A stretch of DNA of 43,134 nucleotides, taken from Nitrospiraceae bacterium. GTDB lineage: Bacteria; Nitrospirota; Thermodesulfovibrionia; Thermodesulfovibrionales; UBA1546. Location: positions 1 through 43,134 of the forward strand of contig JAJFTJ010000007.1 of assembly GCA_021373015.1 (NCBI GenBank). Reading direction: 5' to 3'. The notes under the pieces are model-generated. The model did no database searches. It had not been told where the DNA came from and was given only the letters and a program-made list of their open reading frames with translations. A program made the translations under genes and the position numbers. Of this stretch, positions 23,761-29,577 are shown piece by piece; the first letter of the stretch is position 1; the number at the start of each line of letters is the position of its first letter.

Positions 23761-24822
23761 ATGCTTGATAAACTCCATGCAATAAAAGAAAGATACGAAA
23801 AGCTTAATAATTTTCTGATGGATCCTAAGATCCTTGCAATACCTTATGAATATCAGAAATGTTCCAGGGAACAGTCAGAGCTCCAGCCTATTGTTACAAA
23901 GATAGACGAATATATGAAACTCATCTCTGATATAGAAGAAGCAGAAGAGATGATTAAAAGCGAAGACAGTGAGATGGTAGAGCTTGCTAAGACAGAGATA
24001 AATGAACTCAGAGACAGAAAGCCGAAGATTGAGGAAGATCTCAAGATAATGCTTATTCCAAAAGATTCCAGGGACGAGAAGAGCGTAATTCTGGAAATAA
24101 GAGCAGGAACAGGCGGAGACGAGGCAGCATTGTTTGCTGGTAACCTGTTCAGGATGTATTCAAGATATGCTGAGTCAAAGAAATGGAAAGTTGAGATAAT
24201 TGATTCGAGTCCAACAGGACTTGGAGGACTCAAGGAGATTGTAGCATCAATAGATGGTAAAGATGTTTACAGCAAGTTAAAGTATGAAAGCGGAGTGCAT
24301 CGCGTACAAAGAGTCCCACAAACAGAAACATCAGGAAGAATTCACACATCAGCTGCAACAGTTGCAGTTTTGCCTGAAGCCGAAGATGTTGATATAAGGA
24401 TAGAAGAAAAAGATCTCAGGATTGATACATTCTGCTCATCAGGCGCAGGAGGACAGAGCGTTAATACTACCTATTCAGCAGTCAGGATCACCCATGTGCC
24501 TACAGGTCTTGTTGTACAGTGTCAGGATGAGAGGTCTCAGTTGAAAAACAGGGGAAAAGCGATGAAGGTTCTGCGCTCAAGACTGCTTGAACTTGAGATA
24601 GAGAAAAAAGATAAAGAGCGCGCTGCTGATAGAAAAACGCAGGTCGGCACTGGAGACAGAAGCGAAAGAATAAGAACATATAATTTCCCGCAAAACAGGG
24701 TGACAGACCACAGAATAGGGCTTACGCTTCACAAGCTTGAAAATATTCTTGAGGGAAACCTTGACGAAATAGTCGAAGGACTGATCATCTATTATCAGAC
24801 AGAAAAGCTGAAAGAACTGTAA
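23761..24822 (+). CDS. prfA: Peptide chain release factor 1
   Basis: Recognises UAA and UAG and triggers peptide release. The 353 residues carry the tripeptide PxT as P186-Q187-T188 in [15 protein letters not shown], where RF2 would have SPF, and the catalytic GGQ at 230-232 in [17 protein letters not shown]. The GGQ glutamine is the target of PrmC. CAGGAGAG precedes the ATG. The expected partner prmC is displaced 1.2 kb downstream by an opposite-strand gene. Confidence 0.97.
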
Positions 24823-24848
24823 AGATTATAAATTTAAAGTTTTTGTTT

Positions 24849-24880
24849 GTAGTCGTATATTTTGAACATTATACGACTAC
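24849..24880. repeat. Perfect 11-bp inverted repeat after prfA
   Basis: GTAGTCGTATA (24849-24859) and TATACGACTAC (24870-24880) are exact inverse copies around a 10-base loop. There is no T-run on either strand, so it is not a typical intrinsic terminator. The TCGTAT/ATACGA arms recur on the other side of the neighbouring methyltransferase gene at 25912-25927. Confidence 0.8.
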
Positions 24881-24917
24881 GGAGTGTGATGAAATTACTG
24901 TCCAGTACAGCGACTTG

Positions 24918-25874
24918 TTAGAGCACCTTTCTTATCCACAAGCTTGTATTTCCGGGCGTTAACTTTGAACTAGGCGTATTCAGTATGCGCGGCATGGACT
25001 TTTCTAAAACGTCAGTATGATGTAACGCCATGTAGGAATTGAAATACAGAATTTCAAAGGCCTGATTATACTGCAAAAAAGCCCGTAGAATATATGCTTC
25101 ATTCCATGCTCGTCCATCTTCTAGCCAATTCTTTGGATACTCAAATGGCCATAGGACATCGTGAAAATGTATCAGCACGCCCTTTTTAAGTTGAGGAAGG
25201 ATATGAAAAAGAATATGCAGGACATCACTATTGATTTTTGTTACATGACTCGAATCGATGAATAGGATATCATCTGCTTCGAGCGAGCTGAAGATATTCA
25301 ATTCAACTTCTTGGATTTGTTTTACTTCTACCCTGACTTTCCCTCTGTCTTCTTCTGAAAGTAAAGTGAATAATCGGTCTGGAAACGGTTCAATAAATGT
25401 AAAATCAACTTTTTTATGAAGAAACAAGTCATTTATGTCGAGCATTTCAGATGAGGAAAATCCAGATCCAACCTCAATTATGCGCTTTGGACTAAAGTGC
25501 CTCAAAAAAAAATACAAGATGATACCATCACCGTAGCTAAAAAATGGATTGTCAAGATAGTAACGATATTCTTCTGATTTAGTGTCGGGGAATGGCATTT
25601 CCTTATATAGCGCAGAGACGCTCTCTATGAGTTGAATCTGTGAATCAGCGTTAATCTTTAGTGATTCTATGCTTGTTGCTGATCTGTCAAAAATATATCT
25701 TGATTTTGAACAAATTTCTTGAAAGTCAGGTATAGGAGAATAAAAATGACCTGGAGCTGCAAATCTAATAAAACGAAAATTATCTGATTTCAATAGAGAA
25801 CGAATAGTATCTCTGTTTCTGTAGAGGTTTTTCAGAAATTTAATATTTCTGGATATCTTATTAATTAAGCTCAT
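24918..25874 (-). CDS. Class I SAM-dependent methyltransferase, Methyltransf_24-like
   Basis: The 318 residues contain a Rossmann methyltransferase core: motif I RIIEVGSGFSSSEML (131-145), FIEPFPDRL (160-168) for the ribose-binding acidic residue, DDILFIDSSH (201-210) and a LIHFHDV motif (234-240). The acceptor is unknown; relatives often occur in glycan or secondary-metabolite clusters. The first 110 residues have no motif I can name. It is the only minus-strand gene between 17.7 and 33.6 kb, splits prfA from prmC and is bordered by related palindromes, all consistent with insertion. AAGGGAC lies about seven bases before the ATG. Confidence 0.78.
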   Translation of the reverse strand: MSLINKISRNIKFLKNLYRNRDTIRSLLKSDNFRFIRFAAPGHFYSPIPDFQEICSKSRYIFDRSATSIESLKINADSQIQLIESVSALYKEMPFPDTKSEEYRYYLDNPFFSYGDGIILYFFLRHFSPKRIIEVGSGFSSSEMLDINDLFLHKKVDFTFIEPFPDRLFTLLSEEDRGKVRVEVKQIQEVELNIFSSLEADDILFIDSSHVTKINSDVLHILFHILPQLKKGVLIHFHDVLWPFEYPKNWLEDGRAWNEAYILRAFLQYNQAFEILYFNSYMALHHTDVLEKSMPRILNTPSSKLTPGNTSLWIRKVL

Positions 25875-25911
25875 TGTTCAGTCCCTTATAATACATGTTC
25901 TAGCAATTAGT

Positions 25912-25927
25912 ATACGAACTGTCGTAT
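25912..25927. repeat. Palindrome ATACGA-ACTG-TCGTAT upstream of the methyltransferase gene
   Basis: Six-base arms around a four-base centre, 38-53 bases upstream of the minus-strand start at 25874. A possible minus-strand -10 (TATACT, 25914-25909) overlaps it, so it could be an operator. The arms match those of the longer palindrome at 24849-24880. Confidence 0.5.
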
Positions 25928-26004
25928 TTCCCTAAAACTGCTAAAACAGTATCACATCCAAAAGACTTTTTAAAGAAAAAATCGCGTTGATTAAGTATTC
26001 AGAT

Positions 26005-26033
26005 TTTACGGTTTTTAGATTTTGTGATATTAT
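26005..26033 (+). promoter_or_regulatory. Promoter of prmC
   Basis: TTTACG (26005-26010), 17-base spacer, TATTAT (26028-26033) with TGA in front (extended -10). The start point near 26040 would place the ATG of a seven-codon upstream reading frame at the very 5' end of the RNA. Positions 25928-26004 showed nothing else I could name. Confidence 0.5.
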
Positions 26034-26042
26034 GGACACGAA

Positions 26043-26066
26043 ATGAATCAGACGGATAATCTATGA
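26043..26066 (+). CDS. Possible seven-codon upstream reading frame (uORF) of prmC
   Basis: ATG to TGA encoding MNQTDNL. The TGA overlaps the prmC ATG (ATGA). It begins about nine bases after the predicted -10, so it would be translated as a leaderless ORF. Very short; existence as a translated peptide is an inference from the geometry only. Confidence 0.3.
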   Translation: MNQTDNL

Positions 26067-26905
26067 ATGTGATCGAAAAAATAAAAGAGGTTTCTACTCT
26101 CCTTGAATCTAAAGGCATCGAGGATTCTGCAAAAGAGGCTGTGCTGTTAATAACAGAGACGCTTCAGATAGACAAACATACGCTTTATGCGAAAGATATA
26201 GAGATTACATATGAGACATCTGGATTTATAGATTCACTTGTTCAAAGACGTATAAGAAGAGAGCCAATACAATACATACTGGGCCATGTTGATTTTTTCG
26301 GACTTAAAATAAAAGTAGGTAAAGGTGTTCTTATTCCAAGGCCCGAGACAGAGATTATAGCAGAAGAAGTTATTAAAATTTTACCTTCTGAGGCTGAAGT
26401 GAAAATCCTTGACCTTTGCACAGGCTCAGGGTGCCTTGCTTTTGCAATAGCAAAAAATTTTCCTTATTCAAAGGTATTTGGCACAGACATATCAGACAGG
26501 GCTCTTGAATATGCAGTAGAAAATGCAAAGATTAATAACATTAAAAATATATCTTTTTTTTCAGGCTCATTGTATGAACCAGCCAGACAATTTACGCCTT
26601 TTGATCTGATAGTCTCTAATCCACCTTATATTAAAAAAAATGATATTGATTCTCTCCAGCAGGAAATCAAAGATTGGGAACCTCATACAGCGCTTGATGG
26701 TGGAGAAGACGGTATGGAATTCTACAGAAAAATAATTTCAGATGCAGGGAAATATCTTTCGGATAATGGCTGTGTTTTTCTTGAGATCGGCATGGGACAG
26801 GCTGACGATATTGCAAAGATTGCAAAGCAGGCAGGTTTCAGCGATATTAATATTATTAAGGATTTTGCCGGAATAGAGCGTGTTTTTCGTATAAAAATAA
26901 GGTAG
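26063..26905 (+). CDS. prmC: Release factor glutamine methyltransferase
   Basis: Methylates the Gln of the GGQ motif in RF1 and RF2. The 280 residues have an N-terminal helical domain with RREPIQYILGHVDFFGL (65-81), the PRPETEIIAEEV segment, SAM motif I KILDLCTGSGCLAFA (114-128) and the NPPY catalytic motif (186-189). Full length for PrmC. Only a weak CGGA lies upstream of the ATG, inside a possible upstream reading frame whose stop overlaps the start. Confidence 0.95.
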   Translation: MNVIEKIKEVSTLLESKGIEDSAKEAVLLITETLQIDKHTLYAKDIEITYETSGFIDSLVQRRIRREPIQYILGHVDFFGLKIKVGKGVLIPRPETEIIAEEVIKILPSEAEVKILDLCTGSGCLAFAIAKNFPYSKVFGTDISDRALEYAVENAKINNIKNISFFSGSLYEPARQFTPFDLIVSNPPYIKKNDIDSLQQEIKDWEPHTALDGGEDGMEFYRKIISDAGKYLSDNGCVFLEIGMGQADDIAKIAKQAGFSDINIIKDFAGIERVFRIKIR

Positions 26906-27477: not shown

Positions 27478-29577
27478 ATGGCTAATTTTGAAGTCGACAA
27501 GATTCGCAATGTTGCTGTAATTGCACATGGAGGCGCGGGTAAAACTTCGCTTGTCGAGGCAATGCTTTTTGATTCAGGATCAGTAGATAGACTTGGCACT
27601 ATCGAGGAAGGCAATACTACAACAGATTGTGAGCCGGAAGAAATTGCGAGAAAGATAACTATCATTTCTGCTCTTGGGTTTTGTAACTGGAATGGTTACA
27701 GGGTGAATGTTATTGACACTCCAGGATTCATAAATTTTATTGAAGATGTTAGAGGCTGCCTCAAGGCTGTTGACGGTGCGGTTGTAATAGTCAGCGCTAT
27801 CTCAGGTGTAAAAGGCGAGACAGAGAAAATCTGGAGATATGCATGTGAATATGAAATACCGAGAATTGTTTTTATAAGCAAGATGGACAAGGAAGCAGCC
27901 AATTTTCATGTGGCGCTTGATGAACTCAGCCAGTCATTTGCAACAGAAGGATTAGCCCTCCAGATACCAATAGGAGCAGGTGACAATTTCACAGGAATAA
28001 TAGACCTCGTTAATATGAAGGCATATAAATTCAATAATGGCAAGGCAGTTGAATCTGAGATGCCTGCTGACATGGCTTCACTGTTACAGGAATACAGAAA
28101 AAAGCTAATAGAGAAAATTGCAGAGTCAGATGATGCGCTTTTGGAGAAATATCTTGAAGGCAATGAATTGACACACGAAGAAATCTTGAAGGGAATAAAG
28201 GAAGGCGCGTTATCAAAGAAATTTATACCTGTGGTCTGCGGGTCAGCTACAAAAAATATCGGCATTCCTCAGCTGCTTGATACAATAATACTCTGTCTTC
28301 CATCACCTGATGACCTTGTGAAGGTTTTTCCAATAAAGGGAAAGAATCCTAAAACCGGCGAGCAAGTTCAGAGAAAGCCTGATCCAAAAGAACCCTTCTC
28401 AGCATATGTGTTCAAGACAATAGCAGACCCTTATGCAGGCAAGCTCTCGCTGTTCAGGATTTATTCAGGTATATTAAGAGCTGACTCAACTGTGCATAAT
28501 GCAAATTCAGATACTGAAGAAAGAATAGGACATGTTTCCTACCTTCTCGGCAAAAAACAGATACCGGCAGCACAGCTTGGTCCCGGAGAGTTAGGCGTTC
28601 TCACAAAATTAAAAGAGACAAATACTGGCGATACGCTCTGCGAGAAAGCGCATCCAATAGTATTCGATAAAGTTAAATTTGCCGAACCGATAATCTCATA
28701 TGCAATAGCTACAAAGGTAAAGGGGGATGAGGAAAAGGTGAGCGTTGGTCTTCACAGGATTCTTGAAGAAGACCCGACAATAAAGTTTCACAGGGACGAA
28801 GAGACAAAAGAAATGATACTCTCTGGAATGGGGCAGGTTCATCTTGAAGTTGCCTTAGAGAGATTAAAGAGAAAATTCGGTGCAGAAGTTATGATGAAGA
28901 CGCCTAAGATCCCTTACAGAGAAACAATAAAGGCTGCAGCAAAGGCTCAGGGAAGATACAAAAAGCAGTCAGGAGGGAGAGGTCAGTATGGAGACTGCCA
29001 TATAATGATCGAGCCTCTTGCAAGAAGCAAAGGTTTTGAATTTGTTGATAAGGTTGTCGGCGGATCTATCCCGAGGCAATATATCCCTGCTGTTGAGAAA
29101 GGCATTGTTGATGCAATGCATGAGGGAATAATTGCAGGTTATCCGATGGTTGATATCAGGGTAACACTTTATGACGGCTCATATCATACAGTTGACTCTT
29201 CAGAAATGGCATTCAAGATCGCGGGCTCGATGGCTATTAAAAAAGCTGTTGAGGATGCAAAACCGATTCTGCTTGAGCCGATAATGAAAGTAGAGGTTAC
29301 AACTCCTGATGAGGCGCTTGGCGCAGTAATAGGAGACCTTAACTCAAAGAGAGGAAAGGTTCAGGGTGTAGAGCCTCAGAGCAAGAACCAGAAGATAAGC
29401 GCACTTGTTCCAATGTCAGAGATGCTGACTTATGCTAACCAGCTTCACAGTTTCACATCAGGAAGAGGAATGTATTCGATGGAGTTTTCACATTATGAAG
29501 AAGTTCCTTCACATATGGCGCAAAAGATAATAACTGAGAGAGAAGCTCACAAGAAGGAGAAGACAGAAGATAAATGA
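27478..29577 (+). CDS. Elongation factor G paralogue (EF-G-like GTPase)
   Basis: A five-domain translational GTPase of 699 residues. The P-loop is AHGGAGKTS (16-24), where canonical EF-G has AHIDAGKTT; G3 is DTPGF (80-84), and G4 is SKMD (134-137) in place of NKMD. The C-terminal half has the domain IV block GGRGQYGDCHIMIEPL and an ending TSGRGMYSMEFSHYEEVP. These differences place it with the EF-G2/EF-G-like branch; the housekeeping fusA is expected upstream of tuf, outside the window. Role (translocation, ribosome recycling or stress) cannot be told. GAGGGAGGG precedes the ATG; its TGA overlaps ileS (ATGA). Confidence 0.9.
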   Translation: MANFEVDKIRNVAVIAHGGAGKTSLVEAMLFDSGSVDRLGTIEEGNTTTDCEPEEIARKITIISALGFCNWNGYRVNVIDTPGFINFIEDVRGCLKAVDGAVVIVSAISGVKGETEKIWRYACEYEIPRIVFISKMDKEAANFHVALDELSQSFATEGLALQIPIGAGDNFTGIIDLVNMKAYKFNNGKAVESEMPADMASLLQEYRKKLIEKIAESDDALLEKYLEGNELTHEEILKGIKEGALSKKFIPVVCGSATKNIGIPQLLDTIILCLPSPDDLVKVFPIKGKNPKTGEQVQRKPDPKEPFSAYVFKTIADPYAGKLSLFRIYSGILRADSTVHNANSDTEERIGHVSYLLGKKQIPAAQLGPGELGVLTKLKETNTGDTLCEKAHPIVFDKVKFAEPIISYAIATKVKGDEEKVSVGLHRILEEDPTIKFHRDEETKEMILSGMGQVHLEVALERLKRKFGAEVMMKTPKIPYRETIKAAAKAQGRYKKQSGGRGQYGDCHIMIEPLARSKGFEFVDKVVGGSIPRQYIPAVEKGIVDAMHEGIIAGYPMVDIRVTLYDGSYHTVDSSEMAFKIAGSMAIKKAVEDAKPILLEPIMKVEVTTPDEALGAVIGDLNSKRGKVQGVEPQSKNQKISALVPMSEMLTYANQLHSFTSGRGMYSMEFSHYEEVPSHMAQKIITEREAHKKEKTEDK

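Follow-up and report, generated by a model that had tools for sequence, protein, structure and literature searches.

The genes for release factor 1 (prfA) and release factor glutamine methyltransferase (prmC) stand 1240 nt apart in a 43,134-nucleotide stretch of DNA from a Nitrospiraceae bacterium (hereafter 'the window'), and a further methyltransferase gene lies between them on the opposite strand. This arrangement raises the questions of how the intervening gene was acquired and of what the sequences on either side of it represent. On the basis of the characteristics described below, we judge with a probability of roughly 0.9 that the gap is a decayed chromosomal integron, in which the methyltransferase gene is the surviving captured cassette, the integrase gene (intI) has been lost, and the integrase promoter (Pint) has been left in front of prmC. 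Our comparisons drew on 61 genomes, comprising that of the window and 60 relatives, none of which belongs to the same genus. The window's family is designated f1, and the other families of the order f2 to f13.

Gene organization of the prfA-prmC gap

The preliminary description placed a 957-bp opposite-strand gene for a Methyltransf_24-like protein between prfA and prmC, and both its coordinates and its description are borne out by profile matches (Table 1). The protein scores 36.7 bits against a PF13578 cut-off of 26.3, and positions 24823 to 26062 correspond exactly to the gap. In the window's lineage, the integron is bounded by the end of prfA. Among the genomes searched, the product of the EF-G-like gene in the same window is most similar to a protein of 'Nitrospirae bacterium RBG_13_39_12' (72% identity), with 51%, 48% and 42% identity to its best matches in Desulfobacteraceae, Acidobacteriota and Rugosibacter genomes, respectively; this probably places the organism in the Nitrospirota.

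The 95 nt that separate prfA from the methyltransferase stop codon include a perfect palindrome, and our integron reading gives this stretch no role. The genome holds no second copy of the palindrome, even when up to 3 mismatches are allowed. We rejected it as an intrinsic terminator; by eye, a T-run is absent on both strands, and the terminator scan does not report it. The peptide MNQTDNL, encoded upstream of prmC, is too short for a test, and we do not claim it as an integrase remnant.

Table 1. Positions in the window of the genes and predicted integron parts.
Feature	Position	Strand	Remarks
prfA, release factor 1	23761-24822	+	TIGR00019, 539 bits (cut-off 423)
Perfect inverted repeat	24849-24880	none	11 bp, 10-nt loop; between prfA and the methyltransferase gene
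Candidate attC 5' half, CTCTAACAAGTCGCTGTACTGGAC	24900-24923	-	overlaps the methyltransferase stop codon; 3' half not recognised
Methyltransferase gene	24918-25874	-	957 nt, 318 codons plus stop; PF13578 Methyltransf_24
Predicted attI site	25901-25987	+	model R1, 62.6 bits, E 5.1e-17 (whole genome)
attI and integrase promoter region (attI-Pint module)	25902-26041	+	nhmmer, 72.8 bits, E 1.4e-20
Expected cassette junction	between 25903 and 25904
Putative Pint, now before prmC	26005-26033	+	TTTACG, 17 nt, TATTAT; TG precedes the -10 element
Proposed place of integrase loss	26034-26062	+	the 432-aa intI of G046 starts at the equivalent position and runs as far as the start codon of prmC
prmC, release factor glutamine methyltransferase	26063-26905	+	TIGR03534, 285 bits (cut-off 199)
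EF-G-like gene (named by eye)	27478-29577

A predicted attI site beside an integrase promoter region

The sequence between the methyltransferase start codon and prmC matches a profile that was built from 11 aligned attI-Pint regions, with the window excluded, and searched against 1.5 Mb of loci. When 40 resampled windows were searched with this profile, the top score was 9.5 bits, compared with 72.8 bits for the real sequence. The attI site was also recognised by model R1, which derives from 13 attI sites other than the window's own. Judged by this homology, a predicted attI site lies beside an integrase promoter region in the window.

On the cassette strand, the attI core reads GCT in the window, compared with GTT in relatives with a clear junction. 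The 17-mer of the core at positions 25913-25929 is the sole exact copy in the genome. Searching for this 17-mer across genomes with up to 3 mismatches proved uninformative, with the reversed control matching more often in most rows, and our attI calls rest on exact 17-mer matches and profile models only.

The module match includes the putative promoter. Promoter scanning alone performs at the level of chance (11 sites, with 9.6 expected), as does the terminator scan alone, and neither was counted as proof. Rather, we call Pint a promoter because it is homologous to the region that precedes intI in relatives.

An intact integron in the same gap of a relative

The prfA-prmC gap of one relative from family f12 (G046, locus L042) contains a transposase-like gene (named by eye) and a methyltransferase gene with a complete attC site, both on the minus strand, followed by attI and a plus-strand intI. 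This integrase gene encodes 432 aa, scores 416 bits with TIGR02249 (cut-off 265), and has a stop codon that shares one base with the prmC start codon. Thus, the two genomes share the gap, the attI-Pint module and a minus-strand methyltransferase gene adjoining attI, and G046 offers a homologous intact element at the same site. Unlike the window, however, G046 has an intact integrase and a complete attC, and its methyltransferase belongs to other Pfam families (Methyltransf_23 and Methyltransf_11).

Other genomes carry lesser portions of such an element. Before prmC, G003 has the promoter part of the module (31.2 bits) together with 16 C-terminal intI codons, G037 has approximately 80 N-terminal integrase codons with 33% identity to those of G046, and G010 has a C-terminal fragment from an integrase of another type. 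A contig of G001 starts within an integrase gene that ends on prmC, and in G008 an integrase stop codon overlaps the probable start of mnmE. In the window's genome, which is rated 100% complete, no intI scores above the TIGR02249 cut-off, and the top match (73.7 bits) lies inside xerD; the genome does not have the intI of a functional chromosomal integron.

We propose that the ancestral order would have been prfA (+), a cassette array (-), attI, Pint, intI (+) and prmC (+), with intI ending on the prmC start codon. Cassettes would have been captured at attI through IntI-mediated attC x attI recombination, and the surviving one would be a horizontally acquired methyltransferase gene. Subsequent deletion of intI, loss of the 3' half of the last attC and mutation of the attI core would have frozen this cassette in place. 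The same deletion would leave the integrase promoter region directly before prmC, such that prmC is probably transcribed from the leftover Pint today. The preliminary description held that prmC had gained its own promoter. A promoter-like site is indeed present, but the homology of the module indicates that it belongs to the lost integrase and did not arise from scratch.

The prfA-prmC junction in related genomes

The sequence downstream of prfA was examined in 49 of the 60 relatives, namely 35 from other families and 14 from f1; one f1 genome (G015) was left out, having no match of prfA quality. That prfA and prmC are usually neighbours, as had been assumed, holds for the other families. Of their 35 genomes, 21 have prmC at most 63 nt behind the end of prfA and 5 have a gap of 210-3416 nt, and in 9 prmC falls outside the available stretch. 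Within f1, prmC closely follows prfA only in G013 (14 nt). The gap measures 237-3267 nt in six of the 14 (G003, G004, G005, G009, G011 and G014), and prmC is outside the available stretch in seven (G001, G002, G006, G007, G008, G010 and G012), in three of which the contig ends 81 nt (G007), 595 nt (G008) or 0 nt (G012) after prfA. Judged by these distances, the junction is disturbed across the family and not in the window alone.

In G001, G005, G008 and G010, a palindromic attC lies over the prfA stop codon and is oriented for a minus-strand cassette, although these four sites match our attC model by construction because all are among its nine training sites. The cassettes in the gap differ among genomes, with a BrnT and CopG-antitoxin pair in G001 and BrnT in G009; five other gap cassettes match no Pfam family at E <= 0.001. 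In G041 (family f4), an attC scoring 31 bits is located approximately 550 nt behind prfA, and a weak attC (22 bits) occurs near prmC in G006. The module itself precedes prmC in G004 (80.8 bits) and G014 (76.5 bits), both outside the training set, and scores 49.8 bits in G009, where one other gene stands between it and prmC.

Two f1 genomes count against the integron reading within the family. One is G013, with its short prfA-prmC spacing, and the other is G002, in whose gap no integron part was found by model. The prfA end and the prmC start of G002 (L035, L148) both resemble tRNA-Leu sequence by eye; for this reason its gap was probably opened by another route, and an island inserted into a tRNA gene is suggested.

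Comparison of the locus in sister genomes, which the preliminary description recommended, revealed other cassettes or integron parts in the gap, and the methyltransferase gene in none of the 15 f1 relatives. It was further proposed that the same arrangement in distant members of the phylum would imply an old and stable order. Only two of the 60 relatives have a match to the methyltransferase, in each case on a contig other than that of prfA. The integron site recurs in f12 (G046 and G037), and one f4 genome (G041) has an attC near prfA.

Age and spread of the integron platform

In a tree of prfA and the gene before it, the window's genome clusters with 13 f1 genomes (support 1.0). Nine of these 14 genomes (G000, G001, G003, G004, G005, G008, G009, G010 and G014) have integron components where prfA ends or prmC begins, as recognised by model or protein match, and G006 adds its weak attC; therefore, a platform was probably present in their common ancestor. 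Family f12 is separate from f1 in the tree, and in some genomes of the intervening families prfA and prmC are direct neighbours, so the platform either arrived more than once or was lost several times.

Platform parts are also widespread outside this gap. The attI model finds matches in 25 of the 61 genomes, including 15 of the 16 from f1, and mostly several per genome. The attC model finds sites at E <= 0.01 in 27 of 39 genomes, including all 16 from f1, in a search whose genomes contain eight of the nine training sites. Among 44 distinct modules in the loci examined, a full-length integrase of the G046 type, the only type considered, lies behind four, an N-terminal piece behind four and a C-terminal piece behind one. 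The gene behind the module, as identified by eye, is mnmE in six instances and prmC in five, with a sixth case of prmC where one gene intervenes. Thus mnmE is a second recurrent neighbour of the platform (L074 in G008, L153 in G007, L157 in G006, L277 in G014, L278 in G010 and L264 in G050).

Besides the prfA-prmC gap, the window's genome has two further attI relics. One (L280, C4:43000-48000) is an attI-Pint relic, with attI at C4:45258-45351, located before apbE (ApbE by Pfam), to which the first intI codons are seemingly fused in frame. The other (L279, C5:356500-361000) has attI at C5:358764-358843 before a ubiA-like prenyltransferase gene (named by eye), and a 168-aa ORF with no Pfam match on its other side. 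The same genome also includes a locus (L304, C5:216500-226500) with two complete attC sites, several cassette-like genes and xerD approximately 3 kb away, where no integron integrase was found. In G006, two modules on different contigs (L155 and L156) share 258 bp at 94.6% identity. The similarity continues beyond the integrase start, and both modules have the same sequence lacking an integrase behind Pint, as though a platform already devoid of its integrase had been copied.

These patterns bring to mind a broader model, which we offer tentatively and consider somewhat improbable as it stands. The attI-Pint-intI platform may move within genomes and land between co-directional housekeeping genes, with intI ending on the next start codon. 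Loss of intI would then leave Pint as a new promoter, by which essential genes (prmC, mnmE, a sua5-like gene and apbE) might have been repeatedly rewired, and derivatives without intI might still have multiplied.

The methyltransferase gene as a presumed cassette

The methyltransferase gene starts 28 nt from the attI-Pint module and is read away from attI, opposite to Pint, which is the placement of a cassette gene. A minus-strand ORF of at least 60 aa begins within 60 nt of 31 of the 44 distinct modules; when 4000 positions were drawn at random from these loci, 28.5% had such an ORF. At the other end of the gene, the candidate attC half (Table 1) outscores every other position on either strand of the window with a matrix derived from nine attC 5' ends (16.3 bits, with the runner-up at 15.8). 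With a covariance model, a full attC is not recognised anywhere in the window at E <= 10, so none stands behind the gene, and the element is therefore probably dead. This absence and the GCT core of attI speak against the cassette reading. The methyltransferase gene is nevertheless most likely the remaining cassette of the integron.

The covariance model was built from the junction sites of G001, G005, G008 and G010, together with sites of the array in G046 and of four arrays that lie close to integrase genes. Pairing occurs in 84.0% of cells in these nine sites, compared with 64.0% after shuffling, a figure that is partly selected because seven of the sites were picked by script for complementary ends (the other two were picked by eye). 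The covariation score is 0.519, compared with 0.159 after shuffling, and none of 500 shuffles reached this value; when the partner is shifted by one column, pairing falls to 29.6% or 41.2%. Less clear measures are the number of pairs altered on both sides (11, compared with 8.4 shuffled; 22 of 500 shuffles) and the number of pair types (21, compared with 18.3; 101 of 500). When applied to nine of the 82 loci with methyltransferase relatives (L168, L169, L002, L003, L172, L179, L187, L198 and L207), the model found no site, including at the nearest relative, L168. Across these nine and three loci of the window's genome (L304, L279 and L280), only the two sites of L304 were found at E <= 1.

Origin and likely function of the methyltransferase

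The gene's foreignness, already suspected in the preliminary description, is confirmed by its distribution and codon use. In addition to being absent from the 15 f1 relatives, it has matches in only 2 of the 45 genomes from other families of the order, with 49% and 34% identity. Its mean codon log-likelihood is -1.21, compared with -0.96 to -1.04 for seven window genes, six of which were part of the reference set and the seventh of which scores -1.04.

A total of 320 encoding places were found in the genome collection. Among the best 80 of these, the nearest relative is a full-length protein from a betaproteobacterial Rugosibacter MAG, with 77% amino acid identity (79.9% at the nucleotide level over 974 columns), and the next is from Desulfobacteraceae (61%). 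Between the window's and Rugosibacter copies, dN is 0.14 and dS is 0.84, values that suggest purifying selection; in view of these and of the full-length relative, the gene is not a chance ORF. The Rugosibacter copy is likewise out of place in its contig, with a GC content of 0.37 in a locus of 0.51. At this locus (L168:4800-6100), a stretch of the following FkbM gene is seemingly duplicated upstream, and at the stop codon CTCTAAC precedes a second TCTAAC. Because of this duplication and repeat, a recent insertion is suggested for L168 as well.

The preliminary description stated that relatives of the gene belong to glycan-type clusters, and we indeed find such genes often near them. Glycan-type neighbours (glycosyltransferase, sugar dehydratase, polysaccharide deacetylase, pyruvyl transferase or FkbM-type genes) are present in 8 of 13 loci scanned (L002, L168, L169, L170, L171, L172, L174 and L179), where the scan mostly covered one or two ORFs each, and more in L168. 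None was found in the other five (L173, L175, L177, L178 and L181), some of whose ORFs are perhaps spurious. The predicted structure (pLDDT 86.6) is of the class I SAM type. Its best PDB matches are mostly class I O-methyltransferases, with TM-scores of 0.31-0.44 by query length and 11-17% identity, and mycobacterial MeT1 is within the first 50 PDB structure matches. Searching solved structures with the single sequence gave nothing at E <= 0.1, and a 31-sequence profile gave only weak matches to CmcI (E 0.032 and 0.041). Our best guess is that the enzyme is probably a glycan O-methyltransferase, with a substrate suggested by the neighbour genes of its relatives.

Alternative explanations

Even if the attI-Pint relic is real, the methyltransferase gene might have arrived by illegitimate or transposon-mediated recombination, and the attC half at its stop codon would then be a product of chance. 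This route would fit a window without a complete attC, the narrow margin by which the half site leads its runner-up, and a nearest relative (L168) that lies amid glycosyltransferase genes with no attC according to the model. We nevertheless consider it unlikely, given that the gene is placed and oriented as a first cassette, and that the best attC-half match in the window falls exactly at its stop codon. Candidate transposon footprints in the gap were rejected as well, the direct repeats being short and none flanking the gene on both sides. A cassette might also have been put into a non-classical site (attG) at the prfA stop codon without any platform, if an integrase had acted in trans. Such insertion is a mechanism reportedly described already by Loot in 2024, and the attC sites over the prfA stop codon in four sister genomes speak for it. 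However, attI and Pint are present on the other side of the methyltransferase gene in the window, a whole platform resides in the G046 gap, and an empty platform with its attI core abutting prfA accounts equally well for the attC-prfA junction, which together make this explanation quite improbable.

The preliminary description saw an inserted gene and a newly gained prmC promoter. On this view, a single gene would have entered the prfA-prmC junction by ordinary horizontal transfer, and AT-rich sequence would have given rise to the promoter. The gene's foreign codon usage and its patchy occurrence agree with this, and promoter-like sites are common by chance in the window, but we regard its probability as close to negligible since the promoter lies within a module that has its homologue in the sequence preceding intI in relatives. 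The gene is indeed foreign; what does not hold is the notion of an isolated event, the gap being an integron site common to much of f1. Hence, we continue to favour a decayed integron with one remaining cassette.

Relationship to known integrons

Several findings from earlier work bear on this locus. One survey, in the relevant passages of its report, judged 43-46% of integrase genes to be inactivated (PMC3108266). According to the portions of the IntegronFinder 2.0 survey that concern these points, more than one integrase occurs in 22% of integrase-bearing genomes, and Nitrospirota are represented by two CALIN elements (PMC9024848). The level of prmC expression influences the growth of Bacillus subtilis, as stated in a passage of PMC8073009.

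Searches of the open-access PMC literature yielded no paper that describes an integron beside prfA or prmC. As far as this literature was searched, the site, the lineage, the presence of several relics per genome, the overlap of intI with the next start codon, and the retention of Pint before housekeeping genes appear to be new. The genomes described herein would provide a natural series that runs from the entry of an integron into a translation operon, through its decay, to an integrase promoter region left standing before prmC. They also suggest that uncultured Nitrospirota harbour a group of chromosomal integrons, and indicate a route by which cassette genes could be shared between phyla.

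A CALIN is a cluster of attC sites without an integrase, as the term is used in the pertinent part of PMC9668308. The window's genome is similar in having cassettes without an integrase, and the combination of at least two attC sites and no intI is found at C5:220888-222490, together with cassette-like genes, but not in the window. There, because attI and Pint are present and a complete attC is absent, we regard the locus as a decayed complete integron and not as a CALIN.

In Xanthomonas, a chromosomal integron is located downstream of ilvD, broken integrases are known, and attC clusters occur elsewhere in about half of genomes, according to the sections of PMC12444791 that address these matters. 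As in the Xanthomonas integron so described, the platform of the window's relatives is fixed next to a conserved housekeeping gene. In contrast to it, the lineage and site are different, each genome carries several platform relics, intI runs in the same direction as the gene that follows and terminates on that gene's start codon (G046 and G008), and the integrase promoter region persists before a housekeeping gene.
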